Below are positions 49,099 to 60,099 of a stretch of DNA of 64,000 nt, piece after piece. A program made the translations under genes and the position numbers. The DNA comes from a virus. Position 1 is the stretch's first letter, and each line of letters opens with the position of its first letter. Under the pieces are notes generated by a model. That model did no database searches and was not told the origin of the DNA. It saw only the letters and a program-made list of their open reading frames with translations. The stretch covers positions 1-64,000 of IMG/VR virus record IMGVR_UViG_3300047552_001072. One strand, 5' to 3'.

Positions 49099-50664
49099 TT
49101 AGTATAATTCTTCTGTAAAAGAAGTAGAATCATTCTTAAACTCTTCCATAGCATTGTTTACATGCTCAGAGTTTACAGAAGTTCTACCATTTAAAGCTCT
49201 ATGTACAGCTTTTACATTATCATTTTTGTTCTTATCTCTAATAATATTCATATAACGTATGATACTATCAGTTACTTCTTTGTAAATATCCAACACTTTA
49301 GTTGGAGCATCTTCTCCAAAATTATCATATAACTGGCATATTACATCAGTTAATTTGATTTTATCCTTTCCTTCCAAAATTTTCTTAGAATACACATCTG
49401 CATAACGTACAATGGTATTACAAATTAATAACCACATAAGAGTTTTGTGGAAGTTAACTGTAGGACCATGTAGTCTAAATTCAACGGTACCACTAGAAAA
49501 GAAATAATTAACCAAATTCATGGCATAGTAACGAGTAGGACAATCCCACTGTCTATTCCATGGAGTGTATTTAGTTTGCTTATATATTTTTGGATTATTT
49601 TTTTTGTCTGGTTTTGCTCCACAAGTAATAAACGAGAATATCTCATTATAATGTCTCATAAGCTCTTTTTCATATTCTTCCTTACTCTTAGCTTTATACA
49701 AACTATTATCACCAATTCCTAAGTCAATTAATCTCTCTGAGTATTCTTTTTGTTTACCCATAATAGCTTGTTCATGACGTTTATAGAAAGGAACAAGATT
49801 AAATAATTCATCCTGAAGTCTATAAAATAATTGGTACAAGGCAAGGATAAACTCTTTTCTTTTAGGTAAAGATCCAATATGTACATGCATAGCACAAGAA
49901 TGGTCAACTCTACATTGACTCATTAATCTTTTGCATACTTTCTTCAAAGATTCTAAACCTTTAGCACCTTTTAGAATAACTGTAGCATACTCGTACTGAT
50001 CTCTACTACTTAGGGAGCCATCAACAACAGGAACAATACCACCAGGACCCAAAAAGCTTGTTTGTAAAGTTCCTTGACTAGTTTCAAATTCAACTCCAAA
50101 AGTAAGGTTACCTAATAATCTGGCAATGGTTCTTGACCTGAATGTACTCTTATATTTTGTTTCTTCGTAGATTTTTTGTATATCTACAAAAGCTTTATTG
50201 GCATCATCTGCATGATGCGTAGTTCTAATGTTGATTGCAAAAGTTCTTATAGAAGCTAACTTAGATAAAAATTCAGCAGGCTCTTTAGTTGGATGATAGA
50301 AATAATTACTTGATTTAGACGGCAAATATCCTAAAGAATATGCAATATCTTCATTCATAATAAATAATTCTTCATCTTCTTTCTTTTTTACAGCCGAAAT
50401 GACTTGAACTGTCTTAAAATTGTTAAATAACATAGTACCTCGTTCTCCTTGAGAATTTATGATTCCGTATCTAACATTTTTAGAATTTTCATATTTTTGT
50501 GTTTCATCACAAAAGAGCACTTCTTCTCCAATAATAAAAGGTTGATCTTCTATATAAACTATAGCACCTTTTACTGCATTCTTTTCTTTGATTTTAACTT
50601 TAGGTAAGTTAGTTATAACTAACCTACCGTAAATTATGTCTGTTTTTAAATAGGTTCCACTCAT
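49099..50664 (-). CDS. Amidoligase, glutamine-synthetase-fold COOH-NH2 ligase (type 1)
   Basis: This 521-residue protein carries the motifs of the putative amidoligase family: G190-V-E-F-E194, VVDGS downstream, H260-V-H262 in MHVHIGS, and E395-F-R397. These line up with the metal- and ATP-binding residues of the glutamine synthetase-type fold. The first 180 residues form an N-terminal beta-rich domain I do not recognise. Known members are predicted to form amide bonds between a carboxylate and an amine using ATP. It overlaps the class II glutamine amidotransferase gene by one base (TAATG). The substrate is unknown. Confidence 0.75.
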   Translation of the reverse strand: MSGTYLKTDIIYGRLVITNLPKVKIKEKNAVKGAIVYIEDQPFIIGEEVLFCDETQKYENSKNVRYGIINSQGERGTMLFNNFKTVQVISAVKKKEDEELFIMNEDIAYSLGYLPSKSSNYFYHPTKEPAEFLSKLASIRTFAINIRTTHHADDANKAFVDIQKIYEETKYKSTFRSRTIARLLGNLTFGVEFETSQGTLQTSFLGPGGIVPVVDGSLSSRDQYEYATVILKGAKGLESLKKVCKRLMSQCRVDHSCAMHVHIGSLPKRKEFILALYQLFYRLQDELFNLVPFYKRHEQAIMGKQKEYSERLIDLGIGDNSLYKAKSKEEYEKELMRHYNEIFSFITCGAKPDKKNNPKIYKQTKYTPWNRQWDCPTRYYAMNLVNYFFSSGTVEFRLHGPTVNFHKTLMWLLICNTIVRYADVYSKKILEGKDKIKLTDVICQLYDNFGEDAPTKVLDIYKEVTDSIIRYMNIIRDKNKNDNVKAVHRALNGRTSVNSEHVNNAMEEFKNDSTSFTEELY

Positions 50665-52583
50665 TACTTAATGAAGAAAGCTTTTATTTTAGATGTTTCC
50701 TCATCTTCTAATTCCTCTATGTTAATAGAAGAACATGTATCACATCTCTCTAAATGATTTTGAGTTGTTACTGATCCACAATCATCACAAACTACAATAT
50801 ATTCTTTATCCTTAAAATCTTCTTGCTCTTCTTCTAAATATCTATTTATCTCGTCAATGTTATCAAGAACTTTTTGGAAAGCATTAGTACTGCATTTGTC
50901 ATCACACATAGGACAATCACTTACAACAGTTCCTTTACATTTTAGACAATATTTTATATTATCAAAAGTAGCATAGGTTTCTTTAAAATGTTCTGTTCTT
51001 TCTTTAGTTAATACCTCAACTATCATTGACTCTTTAAAGATATATCCTCTGTTTACATAAGGCCAAATAACTAATCCATCTATTGGATCAGAATGGTTTA
51101 AAAGAGTAGTTGGTTTTATAAAAGTAAGGCAATCTTTTTTATCTTCTTTTCTGTTAAATAATCCTGACCAAATAGGAAAATTAGTAGAACTACGAAGTAT
51201 TGTACCAGATACTGAACCTTCGTTTTTTATTTCGAAGATGTGTAAATCTTTTAAAGATCTTATGTTATTAATAAGTATTCCGCGATAGAAGTATAATTCT
51301 TTTGTTGCAACATTTACTGCAGGAGTCATATCTTCTACATCATAATAAGCATGCTTATCTTCTGATATAAAAATACCTCTTCCAGTTGTGTCAAAAGTAG
51401 TTATTCTATCCACTATTTCTACATCATTATAAGTAGATTTTTCTACACTGACATTTTCTCTAAGTTTTACTTTAGTATGTGCAATGTTACCATTATAATA
51501 ATATAGTCCTTTACTAAAAACTAGCCTACCCTCTTGAATACTTCTAAACAACTCTTGTTGACTTAAACCATCAGAATTTAGAACTCCAGCGGAAAGAGTT
51601 TTAATTGTTTCTAATTCACTTTTTTTTATTTCGCTTGCTGAGCTGCCTACGCATCCGCTTCTGTTCTTTTTTGATAATCTATTATAAAAGTCTGAATCTT
51701 CTTCATGACCCAAGTATCTTGGAGCTGGTAAAGAAAATGAGTTAGTACTTTTAGTAGGATTTCTATCTACTTTGATAACTTCTACTATTTCTCCATCTTC
51801 TATTACAGTAATAGCATCCATAGCAAAATGATACGAATCAATCGTATTACTTTCTAGATATTTCTTTCTGTTAGGAAGAGTTAAAAATGCCTCGTCTAAA
51901 GGTTTATGTTCAGAAGAAATGTATATTCCTGCCTTAGTTTGTACATAGTGTAAAGGTCTTTCAGGAGTATTAACTTTTGAGTAAGTTTCTTTTCCTGCCC
52001 ATACATAAACCTTGTTTGGTTCTTCTTTTATGTGCCATACCAAAGCTGCGCTACCCCTGTACATAGAAAGGAATTCTAAAGTTTCCTTTTCTCCTTGTGC
52101 AAAAATATTGAAGATAAGTACTGAGTCTGATGACCCATAGTCGAGAGACAATCCAAAATGTCTTTCTATTTCTGTTTCGTTAGTAATTGTTCCGTTATGA
52201 ACTCCAATCACAGTTCGAGTAGGATTTTCTTCACTATTTTTTGCTATAATTGGGTGGGCATCAGATAATGTAACACCTCCACGAGAAGAAGATCTTGAGT
52301 GACCAATTACTATACATGGATTATAAAATTTTGGTTTTTTGCCTGCCCAAAATTTTCCTTCTTTTTCATAATGTTTATGAAAAGAAGATATATCAGTTCC
52401 TTTACCATCTACATTTTTAGCCCCTCTATGTACATATAGTAGTCTCTGATTATTTTCTCGTGTGGTATAAAAGACTCCAAAGTTATCTTTTCCTCTGGAG
52501 TCTTGTGCTAATAGTAGATAATTAAGAATTATTTCATTAAAAATTTCTCCTTTCTTACCTATAAAACCTGCGATTCCGCACAT
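50664..52583 (-). CDS. Class II glutamine amidotransferase with C-terminal zinc ribbons
   Basis: The 639-residue protein begins MCGIAGF, so Cys2 becomes the N-terminal nucleophile after Met removal. Other Ntn-type glutaminase features follow: R30-G31, H95-S-R97 (GHSR), H129-N-G131 (VHNGTITN) and D153. The domain releases ammonia from glutamine for transfer to an acceptor. Residues beyond about 260 are not a known synthetase domain. The C-terminal part has two zinc-ribbon-like Cys sets: C546, C549, C557 and C560, then C599, C602, C614 and C617. It is translationally linked to the amidoligase gene downstream and lies 9 bases after the ATP-grasp gene, consistent with nitrogen donation to one of the ligases. 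Confidence 0.8.
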   Translation of the reverse strand: MCGIAGFIGKKGEIFNEIILNYLLLAQDSRGKDNFGVFYTTRENNQRLLYVHRGAKNVDGKGTDISSFHKHYEKEGKFWAGKKPKFYNPCIVIGHSRSSSRGGVTLSDAHPIIAKNSEENPTRTVIGVHNGTITNETEIERHFGLSLDYGSSDSVLIFNIFAQGEKETLEFLSMYRGSAALVWHIKEEPNKVYVWAGKETYSKVNTPERPLHYVQTKAGIYISSEHKPLDEAFLTLPNRKKYLESNTIDSYHFAMDAITVIEDGEIVEVIKVDRNPTKSTNSFSLPAPRYLGHEEDSDFYNRLSKKNRSGCVGSSASEIKKSELETIKTLSAGVLNSDGLSQQELFRSIQEGRLVFSKGLYYYNGNIAHTKVKLRENVSVEKSTYNDVEIVDRITTFDTTGRGIFISEDKHAYYDVEDMTPAVNVATKELYFYRGILINNIRSLKDLHIFEIKNEGSVSGTILRSSTNFPIWSGLFNRKEDKKDCLTFIKPTTLLNHSDPIDGLVIWPYVNRGYIFKESMIVEVLTKERTEHFKETYATFDNIKYCLKCKGTVVSDCPMCDDKCSTNAFQKVLDNIDEINRYLEEEQEDFKDKEYIVVCDDCGSVTTQNHLERCDTCSSINIEELEDEETSKIKAFFIK

Positions 52584-52592
52584 AGTTTATTA

Positions 52593-53558
52593 TTAAATTT
52601 CTTTTCTCTTTTCTAAAATCATCTGTCTAAATGCTTTTTTCCATCTACTGAAAGATAAAACAGCATTTTCATCTCCCATTGATGGGGCAGTATTTATTTC
52701 TAGAATTGTCCAAGATCCAGATTCAGAATCCCACAACATATCTACAGCACCAAAATCAAGATTACAAGCCATACAAGCATCTAAGGCTAAACTAACAGCT
52801 TTGTCAACAGAACAAGATTTTCCTTTACGTGAAAATGTTCTTTCGAAATTTGCAGTAAAGTAGCTATTTCCCAAGGCAATATTTCTTCCAAAACTACCTG
52901 CATCTACAGCCTCTTGTTTCATTAATTTTCTTAGTACTATAATTTCTCCTTTGTAATTTATTTCTGAGACACCATTACTTTGAGGAGGATAATCAACTCT
53001 TTTCATCAAAAGCAGAGGAGACACTGACACACGATACTCGTAAGATTTGCTCATATCTGGTTGAAATACTTCTTCAATGAAATAAGTATTTAATTCTTCA
53101 GATTTTTTAGAAGAAATAAAAGTTGCCAATTCCTTAATATCGTTGATTACTGTCATTCCTTTTCCACCACTACCATAAATAAGTTTTGCAACACAAGGAA
53201 AGGCCAGTCTGAAGTTTTGAACTCCTGCAGCGCTTAATTTCAATTCTGCAAACATTTGGTACTTCGGTGTAGGCAAACCAGCATCAACTAAGAACTGTTT
53301 ACATCTTACTTTATTTGATGCATTTTTAATTACATCAGGGTGATTTAAGATTACCCCACCATCTTTACGAACTAAGGCTACTTTTTCATAGCAGTTTTCT
53401 GTTCTACTACCTAAATTGATTAGAGTTTTATATGGAAATTTTCCTATAGGAAATCTTTCTTCTGGCTTCTCTTTATCTTTTTGAATTCGGAACTTATCTG
53501 CTGATGGGTTCTTGCTGATTACGTGAGGAGAAAATTGTTCGTTTAATTCAGTACTCAT
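52593..53558 (-). CDS. ATP-grasp carboxylate-amine ligase (RimK-like)
   Basis: This 321-residue protein has ATP-grasp motifs: the loop with K125 and GSGGKG (129-134), FIEEV (E162-E163), EYRVSV, and the metal-binding end DMLWD near 274 with E287-I-N289. Such enzymes form acyl-phosphate intermediates and join a carboxylate to an amine, as in RimK, MurE-like or tubulin-tyrosine ligase-like enzymes. It overlaps the cyclotransferase gene by one base (TAATG), so the two are coupled. It is the second kind of amide-forming enzyme in this cluster. Confidence 0.8.
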   Translation of the reverse strand: MSTELNEQFSPHVISKNPSADKFRIQKDKEKPEERFPIGKFPYKTLINLGSRTENCYEKVALVRKDGGVILNHPDVIKNASNKVRCKQFLVDAGLPTPKYQMFAELKLSAAGVQNFRLAFPCVAKLIYGSGGKGMTVINDIKELATFISSKKSEELNTYFIEEVFQPDMSKSYEYRVSVSPLLLMKRVDYPPQSNGVSEINYKGEIIVLRKLMKQEAVDAGSFGRNIALGNSYFTANFERTFSRKGKSCSVDKAVSLALDACMACNLDFGAVDMLWDSESGSWTILEINTAPSMGDENAVLSFSRWKKAFRQMILEKRKEI

Positions 53559-54148
53559 TATTCAGTTATTTTTTCTTGTTCAACCTCTTCTTTAAAATAA
53601 TACTCATACGCTTTTGGAGCCTCTTGTTTTAGTCTTTCTTTCAAATCACTTGAGTATGTTTTGTAAACATTACCTACATAATCTCCCTTAGGATTTTTTG
53701 CTGCTTTTTGTTCAGCACTTGACCAAGGTGCTTCATAGAATTTAGCAATGATTGGCCCATCTTCTAGATTAATTCTAACTGCACAAGCTCTATATGCATC
53801 ATATTTTACTCCTTCAAGAGCATCTGTCTCTGCATTAATTCTATCAAATTCATCTGTTACTTGAAATAAATCAAATACAGTAACGTGACTTGTATCTCCT
53901 GTAAATTCACAAGAAATTCCACGACTTTTTAGAAATCCAGGAAGTTCTAATGTAGCGATATGTTTTGTTCTTTTATTGAAACACCATGCCCAATTACCCA
54001 TTCCAAGTCTTAATGTTCCATACACTAAGAAATAATTAGTTAAAAAGCTTTCTCCACTTTTCATTCTCAATATTCCTACTCTCTCCAATTCTTGTTTTTG
54101 ATCCTTTGTAAGATCAGAAAAGTTCAATAGTTTTTGCATTTTCTTCAA
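53558..54148 (-). CDS. Gamma-glutamylcyclotransferase (AIG2/GGCT family)
   Basis: This 196-residue protein has the substrate-binding loop VYGTLRLGMGN (Y43-G-T-L-R47) and the DALEGV motif with E112, the expected catalytic acid of the family. It probably cyclises a gamma-glutamyl residue to release an amine, or does the related reaction on an intermediate. The first 35 residues are a helical extension before the core. It overlaps the UDG-like gene by 35 bases and precedes the ATP-grasp gene, so it belongs to the same ligase unit. Confidence 0.8.
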   Translation of the reverse strand: MKKMQKLLNFSDLTKDQKQELERVGILRMKSGESFLTNYFLVYGTLRLGMGNWAWCFNKRTKHIATLELPGFLKSRGISCEFTGDTSHVTVFDLFQVTDEFDRINAETDALEGVKYDAYRACAVRINLEDGPIIAKFYEAPWSSAEQKAAKNPKGDYVGNVYKTYSSDLKERLKQEAPKAYEYYFKEEVEQEKITE

Positions 54149-55055
54149 AGATTAATCTAAAATCAATTACTTTTTCTACTCCTTTTGTAGCAGTAATTTG
54201 TTCATTAATTATAGATGTTAGAAAAAATTTTTTACTTGATGTAAGTTCGTCTGGATCTGGGTAAGTAATGACTAAATGCTTTTCATCGTTAACCAGATTT
54301 TTAATTATTTCATTAGGCCTTTCTTGAAAAGATAAAAATATTAAATTATCTAATTTATCTGAAATATTATGAATAACCATTTCAGTAAAATCTTTCCAAG
54401 TATTTCTGTGTGCCTGTATCATATCTCGTCTACCAGTAGATAATGTTGGTATAACATTCATAAGTAATACACCTTGAGAAGCTAAATGTTCAAGAGGATA
54501 TTGCCATGAAGAATTTGGACTATACCACTCAATATCTAATTTTTCTCTCTCTGAGTCAATCTCTTGGAGAGTCTTGAAATATTCAGCAGCAGAATATGAA
54601 TCTAATTCTATTTCTTCACTGCTTTTTAAATTTCTTGCTTCGTCTAATAATCTAGTAAGATACCTGTATTTTTTATTATACAAATCTGAACATACTCCGT
54701 GAAATTCACAGTATCTTATATGACTTATAAAATGATTTACTTCAGTAGGTAAAGCTAGTCCTCTTCTATAACTCATTCCTAAGCCATTATTTGCGTCTGA
54801 TTGATCTATGTCTGGCATGTCAGTCAGTATTACCATCTTAAGATGCGGAGGCCCAAATAAATCAAATGGTGCAAATATATTATTGTATTCTGGAGTAACA
54901 TTAGGATAAAGTTTTAATGCTTCAAATATCTTATACATCTCCTTAGAGGAAAGATAATTGTAAAAGAAGTCAAACCAATTTCTTAGTAATAACTTACCAT
55001 AAACTCTATCCCAAAGCAACTCTTTTACTTTATTTTCTGCTTGTTTGTTCATCAA
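54114..55055 (-). CDS. Uracil-DNA glycosylase fold protein with degenerate active site
   Basis: The fold of family 1 uracil-DNA glycosylase is evident from the ordered motifs VILTDMPDID, NGLGMS, GVLLMNVIPT with RNTWKDFTEMVI, and YPDPDELTSSKKFF, which correspond to GQDPYH, GLAFS, the LLLNTVLTV strand and HPSPLS. However the catalytic Asp position is Met80 (D79 lies one residue earlier), Tyr66 of the family becomes Asp82, and the HPSPLS His is Tyr265. The 313-residue protein also has an N-terminal and inserted region. It is probably not an active uracil glycosylase. It could bind DNA or a modified base, act as a polymerase processivity partner as the poxvirus protein D4 does, or have a changed specificity. 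It overlaps the primase gene by 26 bases. Confidence 0.7.
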   Translation of the reverse strand: MMNKQAENKVKELLWDRVYGKLLLRNWFDFFYNYLSSKEMYKIFEALKLYPNVTPEYNNIFAPFDLFGPPHLKMVILTDMPDIDQSDANNGLGMSYRRGLALPTEVNHFISHIRYCEFHGVCSDLYNKKYRYLTRLLDEARNLKSSEEIELDSYSAAEYFKTLQEIDSEREKLDIEWYSPNSSWQYPLEHLASQGVLLMNVIPTLSTGRRDMIQAHRNTWKDFTEMVIHNISDKLDNLIFLSFQERPNEIIKNLVNDEKHLVITYPDPDELTSSKKFFLTSIINEQITATKGVEKVIDFRLIFEENAKTIELF

Positions 55056-58225: not shown

Positions 58226-59047
58226 TTAAACAGTTACTAAATTTAATTTATAATCTTTAATCAACATCTCCACAATCTCCATATCACGGCCATCAATAGC
58301 CATTTTTACTTTGCGGAAATCAATAGGTTCATTGCTATTAAAGTGTTCTGCAGCTCTTTGAACAGAATCCCATACCCAAGCAATTAATTTAGGTTCGAAT
58401 ACCCAGAAATTTGATAATACACGATACTCACAGCCATAAGGCTTATAACGGAAAGAACCAGATTTGCCGTACAATTTTCTACGTTCTACGTCTTTATCTA
58501 GTACTAGGGAAGGGACACCAAGATACAAGTCCAGTAATTTAATGAATTTTCTCATCAATAATTTAGGCATATCTTTACCTCCCTCGATACCAATATGAAC
58601 ATGGCCTCCACAAGTACGGAAGTTAGTGGTTTTCGCAGAATCACTAATTTCATTTAATTTACCTGTGTAAGCATCAACATCAGGATCACATCCAAAGGTA
58701 CGTGCTTGTTCAGTATCAAGATACTTAGGATCAAAGTAAGCTGAGGCAGCTTTACTCAAGGATAATTCATACTCTTTTGGAAATGCTTTTGGCAAGTACT
58801 CTATACTATTTGTAATATTATTTACAAACATTTCTTTGCTAGTACAAGGTGCAGTTGTAATTTCTACTGCAACGTTATCTTCTTGAATCGATAGTCCTTC
58901 TATTCCTGATTCTTTTAAAGGTTTTGGAACCTCTTTTGTTCCTCCAATAATTCCACAAGATGGGTAGAATATACCATCACGAGTAATAAAGAACTCAGGA
59001 TCAGACCCTAAGCTTAAAATGTTGATTTTAAAATCTTTTTTTTCCAT
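58226..59047 (-). CDS. COOH-NH2 ligase, phiEco32 type 2
   Basis: This 273-residue protein has the signature of the phage phiEco32-like ligase type 2: SDPEFF (D16, E18), EDNVAVEITTAP (E56, D57, E62), GGHVHIG (H149, H151) and CEYR (E207, R209). The pattern GSDPE at the start, HxHIG in the middle and E[FY]R near the end is that of a glutamine-synthetase-fold amidoligase. It is separated from the other ligase genes by the SSB, primase and ATPase genes but lies in the same leftward transcript. It overlaps the neighbouring unknown gene by one base (59047). It probably acts with the type 1 ligase, the ATP-grasp enzyme and the cyclotransferase. Confidence 0.8.
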   Translation of the reverse strand: MEKKDFKINILSLGSDPEFFITRDGIFYPSCGIIGGTKEVPKPLKESGIEGLSIQEDNVAVEITTAPCTSKEMFVNNITNSIEYLPKAFPKEYELSLSKAASAYFDPKYLDTEQARTFGCDPDVDAYTGKLNEISDSAKTTNFRTCGGHVHIGIEGGKDMPKLLMRKFIKLLDLYLGVPSLVLDKDVERRKLYGKSGSFRYKPYGCEYRVLSNFWVFEPKLIAWVWDSVQRAAEHFNSNEPIDFRKVKMAIDGRDMEIVEMLIKDYKLNLVTV

Positions 59048-60099
59048 TAGATTTCTAGAAATTTCATGCTTCTGATTACCTCATCTAGTTTTCCTTCCTT
59101 ATCTTTTTTGTTAAAGTAAAGTACTATTTGATCACCATATAGTACATTATCATTATCCAATGGTATTCCTTCAATGTGATCTTTCTTTATCTCTACCATT
59201 TTCTTCCACATAAAATCAGAAATATTAGCACTGAACATTTTGTTAAATTCCTCTCTGGTAATCTTTTTTGAGATTATAGGAACACTAACAATTTGTGTCC
59301 AAACTGCGTTAAGATTTTTACCTTGAACATAATCATTATGAAGGCTAGAATAAGATTTTATGCCACACAATTCTGTAACATTAGAATAAGATATTTCTTC
59401 TCCATCATCATCCTCTTCAAAGCTATCACAATCATTTTGTCTAAATATGTTGGGAACTACATAAAATCCATAGTATGGATCATATGCTTTACCTGCACCA
59501 AACATGTGTCCTGCCCAAAACAACTCAAGAGGCCTCAATTTTGGATACTTATTCGCCAATTCAACAGTCTTCATGTAAATTGAATTACTTAAAGGACTAT
59601 AAAAATAACGAATAAATGAAAGTGTTCCTAATCCATGTTTAGGAGAGACTAAATCTCTAGTATCCCAACTAACAACAAAACAATCTGTAATGTTTTTAGT
59701 CCATGAAGGAAGATTTTTTAAGTTCTTTTCTTTATAGAAGTTTGTGGGAGTAAATACTCCTAAAAACTCTGTTCTAATTCCAATAGTTTTTCCAAATTGT
59801 ATCCAAGCTTTTAAATCTTCTTGAATTTTACTTACTTCTTCTTTTGTTGGATTATCATTTTTCTTTCCCCAAAAGTCAGTTGGGATAAACATGAAAGCAA
59901 TGTCCTCAGCTATAATATTAGAAGAGGAATAAGTACTATCCTGACTACATCCAGCCTCTCTTCTCGTTCTGGAATGTCCAGAATACACATTGTTTCTAAA
60001 TTGAATGATATCAAAATTCCCATTGTTGGAATTTATCATCTTATCATTAATACTTTTGTATTCTTTCGATATTGGTTTAATCTTAGTTTGATTCATCAA
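59047..60099 (-). CDS. Hypothetical protein coupled to amidoligase type 2
   Basis: This 350-residue protein has no motif I recognise. It has a disordered Ser/Asn/Arg-rich start, a mixed alpha/beta core with FMFIPTDFWGKK, DCFVVSWDTRDL and FWAGHMFGAGKAYDPYYGF, and an acidic insertion (DSFEEDDDGEE). The one-base overlap with the amidoligase gene downstream indicates coupled expression, so it is a candidate partner or substrate-recognition component of the ligase set. It overlaps the DnaB-like gene by 17 bases. Confidence 0.5.
   Translation of the reverse strand: MMNQTKIKPISKEYKSINDKMINSNNGNFDIIQFRNNVYSGHSRTRREAGCSQDSTYSSSNIIAEDIAFMFIPTDFWGKKNDNPTKEEVSKIQEDLKAWIQFGKTIGIRTEFLGVFTPTNFYKEKNLKNLPSWTKNITDCFVVSWDTRDLVSPKHGLGTLSFIRYFYSPLSNSIYMKTVELANKYPKLRPLELFWAGHMFGAGKAYDPYYGFYVVPNIFRQNDCDSFEEDDDGEEISYSNVTELCGIKSYSSLHNDYVQGKNLNAVWTQIVSVPIISKKITREEFNKMFSANISDFMWKKMVEIKKDHIEGIPLDNDNVLYGDQIVLYFNKKDKEGKLDEVIRSMKFLEI

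Follow-up and report, generated by a model that had tools for sequence, protein, structure and literature searches.

A phage cassette of amide ligases and gamma-glutamyl-removing enzymes, and its rearranged form in a crAss-like phage

Phage gene cassettes combining glutamine-synthetase-fold and ATP-grasp ligases with a class II glutamine amidotransferase (GAT-II) and gamma-glutamyl-removing enzymes have been reported before, and the copy considered here lies in a stretch of 64,000 nucleotides (hereafter, the window), which is part of the 76,953-base IMG/VR virus record IMGVR_UViG_3300047552_001072 (positions 1 to 64,000). One described system is the phiEco32 module (Iyer et al., 2009; NC_010324 genes 77–86), which shares the same five enzyme families, encoded on one strand beside primase/helicase. 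In phiEco32 the COOH-NH2 ligase stands inside the cassette and is separated from the amidoligase by an extra gene for a protein of ~200 residues, whereas in the window this ligase is upstream of Sak4 and the extra gene is absent. Another example is the podovirus version, published as a "peptidoglycan modification cassette" in RIO-1/PSA-HP1 and LUZ24-like phages (PMC5498523 and PMC11945000). Here gamma-glutamyl cyclotransferase (GGCT), amidotransferase, two amidoligases, and ATP-grasp are likewise found amid replication genes, although host lineage and gene order differ from those of the window. The Crassvirales phi14:2 (KC821624, cultured) and cr108_1 (MT774385, uncultured) carry primase, ATP-grasp, COOH-NH2 ligase, GAT-II, amidoligase, and UDG in one run. 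In phi14:2 there is a GGCT without a linked C26 gamma-glutamyl hydrolase, and in cr108_1 a C26 without a linked GGCT; in the window GGCT is in place, and C26 lies ~18 kb away with a second amidoligase. The set occurs also in UFV-P2, O4, and Slicky01, with protein homology throughout. The literature searched yielded no report of the gene set in crAss-like phages, no biochemical test of the cassette or of its wall target, and no functional test of the phiEco32-type set, as a preliminary description of the window had said of the latter. The same description held that the crAss-like occurrence deserved biochemical work; this occurrence is not new, as phi14:2 and cr108_1 already carry the module, partly annotated in their records. 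The cassette is thus real, coherent, widely shared, and already described, and the present locus is a rearranged member of it; what the present analysis adds are further members, figures for the linkage, the interchange of GGCT with C26 and their fusion, and an argument from restriction sites.

The four consecutive genes from which the analysis departed (Table 1) are all intact and open, and open reading frames (ORFs), Pfam searches, and a residue check place every catalytic motif of the preliminary description where it had been read. The amidoligase scores 46.6 bits against the Amidoligase_2 profile (curated cut-off 22) and keeps E192-F-E194, HVHIG at 260, and EFR at 395, with E192, E194, H260, H262, E395, and R397 invariant in a 40-row alignment. 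The amidotransferase (GATase_6, 37 bits, cut-off 27) has Cys2 in MCG, HNG at 129–131 (N130, G131), and D153; an SGG motif is absent, and neither Pfam nor NCBIfam matched a synthetase domain in its C-terminal extension. The ATP-grasp protein (RimK, PF08443, 36.1 bits, cut-off 21) carries GSGGKG at 129 and the metal-binding ExN as EIN at 287. Its nearest family is that of the RimK-family glutamate ligases, but its 67.4 bits against TIGR00768, the RimK alpha-L-glutamate ligase subfamily, remain under the curated cut-off of 143.4, and by these profile scores it is best called RimK-like rather than RimK. The weakest call of the four is the GGCT, marginal at 23.9 bits against the GGACT cut-off of 22.8 (PF06094), with YGTLR at 43 and with Y43, G44, L46, and E112 invariant in six aligned sequences. 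Named catalytic residues are mostly invariant or nearly so in the homologue alignments, and every module protein of the window has pairwise matches to same-module proteins of other phages except this divergent GGCT, which matched no other phage GGCT with phmmer. The two one-base TAATG couplings that had been described, from GAT to amidoligase and from GGCT to ATP-grasp, are both correct. The assignment to crAss-like phages also holds at the level of protein matches, as the head protein matches those of crAss-like phages of Flavobacterium, Bacteroides, and Cellulophaga. No nucleotide similarity of the window to isolate phages was found, and single-protein scans of viral contigs recovered only one near-identical contig as a close relative.

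Table 1. Position of the module genes in the window and of the additional pair elsewhere in the genome
Feature	Position	Strand	Basis or remark
Amidoligase_2 (PF12224) ligase, glutamine-synthetase/glutamate-cysteine ligase (GCL) superfamily, 521 residues	49099..50664	-	Pfam and catalytic motifs
Class II glutamine amidotransferase (GATase_6)	50664..52583	-	Nucleophilic Cys at the N terminus; four CxxC pairs in a C-terminal extension
RimK-like ATP-grasp ligase, 321 residues	52593..53558	-	Pfam and ExN motif
Gamma-glutamyl cyclotransferase (GGACT/AIG2-like), divergent	53558..54148	-	YGTLR and E112 kept
phiEco32-type COOH-NH2 ligase type 2 (PF14395, phrog_3815), fifth module gene	58226..59047	-	Profile scores and fold
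Second Amidoligase_2 gene and C26 gamma-glutamyl hydrolase	L093:11142-13018, ~71.1–73.0 kb of the phage's own genome, outside the window		C26 overlaps amidoligase start by 4 bases

The four genes had been described as one amide-ligase module; they are real, but the module is larger, with a fifth ligase and a further amidoligase–C26 pair elsewhere in the genome. The fifth member, a COOH-NH2 ligase, is identified by 43.9 bits against PF14395 (cut-off 25) and an E-value of 3.4e-68 against phrog_3815. It is placed ~4 kb upstream of the other four in the same run of replication genes, the intervening genes being Sak4, two without assignment, primase, and one that is UDG-like. All five enzymes are found on one strand near primase. 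Its AlphaFold model (pLDDT 95) adopts the glutamine synthetase/GCL fold, and the best PDB matches by Foldseek are, in this order, YbdK, glutamine synthetase, plant glutamate-cysteine ligase, and GshAB, enzymes whose reaction takes place at the glutamate gamma-carboxylate. The model of the window amidoligase is confident in the core only, with ~90 N-terminal residues of very low confidence, and sequence searches found no solved relatives for either ligase. The C26 enzyme outside the window reaches 76.3 bits (cut-off 20.5) and has the Cys-His-Glu triad motifs GICLG, NSRHHQ, and QWHPE. PADLOC profiles of known anti-phage defence proteins gave no match for seven proteins compared with them.

The linkage of these genes has been measured across phages. 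When viral contigs were scanned for the COOH-NH2 ligase, 436 relatives were returned, of which the best 80 were taken with their flanks and, together with annotated phages, dereplicated at 90% ligase identity, giving 77 loci; as the selection comprises the best ligase matches only, more distant partial modules may be missed. Amidoligase is present in 73 of the 77 loci, ATP-grasp in 72, and GAT-II in 74, and rather than occurring sporadically without one another these three and the COOH-NH2 ligase, the four core genes, are found together in 69. Module genes share one strand in 77/77 loci, with a median span of 4.7 kb, and 69 loci have a primase homologue near the module, 89% of these at a distance of no more than 2 kb. 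Moreover, the distances of the four proteins are correlated (Mantel r 0.45–0.76; 0/2000 permutations as high). Protein homology and linkage together bear out the earlier proposal that the ligase-fold enzymes form one module homologous to the phiEco32 set. Among 84,980 bacterial and archaeal species genomes, a pattern scan found ligase homologues on 14 contigs only, all derived from metagenome-assembled genomes and none above 50 kb, and therefore, as far as such a scan is sensitive enough, the COOH-NH2 ligase looks confined to viruses.

Enzymes predicted to remove gamma-glutamyl groups also recur in the cassette. GGCT or C26 is encoded in 71 of the 77 loci: 46 have C26 alone, 16 have both, and 9 have GGCT alone. 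In at least two of the six loci with neither, L052 and L080, the contig breaks off upstream of the ligase, after 442 and 386 bases, respectively. In one locus the two enzymes are naturally fused in a single ORF (L048:8940-10001; GGACT 49.6 bits, Peptidase_C26 72.6 bits). Key residues of the C26 motifs GICRG, SxHHQ, and QxHPE are kept in 92–96% of members, and the three C26 proteins tested by Pfam were all called Peptidase_C26. GGCT and PuuD-type C26 enzymes act on substrates of one kind, gamma-glutamyl amines in which the alpha-amine is free. Because GGCT exchanges for C26 and both use this one kind of substrate, gamma-glutamyl removal is the most informative clue to a common step, and not, as GGCT had been read at first, one component among others.

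The observed genes and their catalytic residues, the strict linkage of the genes, the ligase fold, and the way in which GGCT and C26 replace each other or fuse are best explained, in our judgement, by a phage-restricted gamma-glutamyl/amide pathway in which a gamma-glutamyl cap would be put on and later taken off, to which we give a probability of about one half. Its genes would be expressed from the early replication block. The COOH-NH2 ligase, perhaps with the amidoligase, would use ATP to turn a carboxylate, of which the glutamate gamma-carboxylate is the likeliest, into an acyl phosphate and couple it to an amine; the class II amidotransferase would split glutamine and pass ammonia to a glutamine-synthetase-fold partner, converting a carboxylate into an amide; the RimK-like ATP-grasp enzyme would add a further amino acid; and the terminal gamma-glutamyl cap would be removed by GGCT, as 5-oxoproline, or by the C26 hydrolase, as glutamate. 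We take the acceptor to be a small metabolite or peptide from the host cytoplasm. Several observations weigh against this capping pathway. Statistical support for GGCT and C26 replacing one another is weak (Fisher p 0.016, with no correction for kinship), 16/77 loci have both enzymes, and C26-fold proteins are hard to separate by sequence from ordinary glutaminases, PF07722 having matches in all 14 control genomes. In the window the COOH-NH2 ligase is not inside the cassette beside the other members, and it stands apart from them. Its Foldseek TM-scores are low, ~0.5 or less, and thus the model makes the superfamily clear but does not indicate the substrate. As for the amidoligase, the Foldseek comparison that had been suggested did give glutamine synthetase/GCL-like proteins as best matches, although none was significant (none under E 0.001).

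Stem peptides of the bacterial wall also contain a gamma-glutamyl link, and in the known cases bacterial wall amidation relies on amidotransferases. Both facts would suit the published proposal for the podovirus cassettes, according to which the ligases act on wall precursors, whose stem peptide they would change or amidate, and so block superinfection or recycle wall material (PMC5498523, PMC11945000). The named bacterial hosts among the listed rows of isolate phage records with the ligase are all Gram-negative, which is in line with a wall target but may reflect sampling. On the other hand, GGCT needs a free glutamyl alpha-amine to form 5-oxoproline; in stem peptides this amine is bound to L-Ala, and so on chemical grounds GGCT would not be expected to work on them. 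The module proteins also showed neither a membrane domain nor a wall-binding one, and we regard peptidoglycan modification as rather unlikely.

The position of the module within replication genes, so often close to a primase homologue, speaks for a different reading, in which the enzymes would modify a nucleotide or DNA base and thereby shield phage DNA from restriction. In the BASEL paper, resistance of Gordonclarkvirinae to restriction-modification is reported without explanation. The genomes of Bas90 and phiEco32 do contain EcoRI and EcoRV sites, and the idea therefore keeps some ground for phiEco32-like phages. For the LUZ24-like U17/HTN1, which has the full module, the picture is different: its DNA is cut by 11/16 enzymes (PMC11945000), and the U17 genome has sites for exactly 11 of the 16 (it lacks those of SmaI, PstI, SalI, NotI, and XhoI), so that every usable enzyme appears to cut, the match to the 11 cutters being one by count. 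DNA bases had been listed among the possible targets together with a protein, an envelope polymer, and a nucleotide; base modification is now unlikely for LUZ24-like carriers. In phiEco32 (L109, L004, L110) there are 0 PstI sites against ~19 expected and about half of the expected GATC, a sign of past restriction pressure that also counts against base modification, and no gene of a known base-hypermodification pathway was seen among the annotated recurrent neighbours. As a general account, nucleotide or DNA-base modification is improbable. A bolder version of the capping pathway, which we hold to be doubtful, is that it makes an undescribed gamma-glutamyl small molecule or conjugate during DNA replication, with no modification of the wall, and that in some lineages, for example phiEco32-like phages, this product would protect from restriction or another host defence.

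The kinship of the ATP-grasp enzyme with RimK-family glutamate ligases could also point to peptide tagging of a host or phage protein, by RimK-like glutamylation or amidation, and related phage ATP-grasps have been proposed as protein taggers (PMC4431377). Several ligases, a glutaminase, and cap removers exceed the needs of a single tag, and no small conserved protein that could be the acceptor accompanies the module in a majority of loci, which leaves protein tagging quite improbable. Another proposal, made for phage ZRK32, is nitrogen or amino-acid salvage for the host cell. The same genes have been tied to growth on nitrate or ammonium, but the evidence consists of growth with the whole phage, without a test of any single gene (PMC10945688). 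In addition, the ZRK32 record is an unverified partial genome, and ATP-spending ligases with cap removers would give a poor net gain of nitrogen; salvage is accordingly very hard to credit. This record (L113; OP650935, "Poriferisphaera phage ZRK32", said to be a chronic phage of Planctomycetes) has ~70% nucleotide identity to UFV-P2 in pieces that cover 40% of the module, and may be a fragment of a Pseudomonas phage of the LUZ24-like group.

Some neighbours of the module deserve mention. In most of the loci outside the crAss-like phages, a family of ~200 residues without Pfam match stands between the COOH-NH2 ligase and the amidoligase (L045:10764-11384 and ~54 other loci). Its profile has matches in 54–57 loci and none in L010 (the copy of the window locus), phi14:2, or cr108_1, nor in phiEco32's own gene there, and this position may be occupied by several gene families. 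Genes for nicotinate phosphoribosyltransferase and phosphoribosyl pyrophosphate synthetase are found near the module in Leptolyngbya phage Lbo-JY46 and Pseudoalteromonas phage Slicky01 (L007, L008). Beside GGCT in the window, the UDG-like gene (54114-55055) has TDMPDI in place of the catalytic GQDPYH; among aligned crAss-type relatives only cr108_1 retains GQDPY, and this UDG lineage seems to have degenerated. Immediately upstream of the COOH-NH2 ligase, and joined to it by a TAATG junction, a gene for 350 residues (59047-60099) was considered as a module member and rejected: a profile search finds it only in the window and the near-identical contig, and it matches no neighbours in other phages. 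A recent podovirus origin of the window COOH-NH2 ligase, suggested by its nearest identities, was likewise dropped, the tree giving no supported placement.

The ligase that marks the cassette is found in at least 313 isolate phage records and 436 viral-contig stretches, including crAss-like phages and podoviruses of E. coli and Pseudomonas. Some carriers can be grown on laboratory strains: the BASEL Gordonclarkvirinae on E. coli K-12 whose O-antigen has been restored, and the LUZ24-like phages on P. aeruginosa PAO1. The link of GGCT and C26 to the cassette offers a concrete activity to assay, and the count of restriction sites removes a popular guess, DNA modification, for LUZ24-like phages.

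Comparison with characterized enzymes places the proposed capping pathway in a wider frame. The carboxylate-amine ligase YbdK (1r8g, 1tt4) is the nearest solved fold to the COOH-NH2 ligase, from which it differs in length, with 10–13% identity and a TM-score of ~0.5. By analogy, the logic of the relay is that of the Puu putrescine pathway and of butirosin biosynthesis (BtrJ/BtrG), in both of which a gamma-glutamyl group is attached for a time only. In these systems a glutamine-synthetase-like or ATP-grasp ligase adds the group and a C26 hydrolase or GGCT-type enzyme takes it off, as would be the case in the phage cassette, although they belong to bacterial metabolism and have one ligase each and known substrates.

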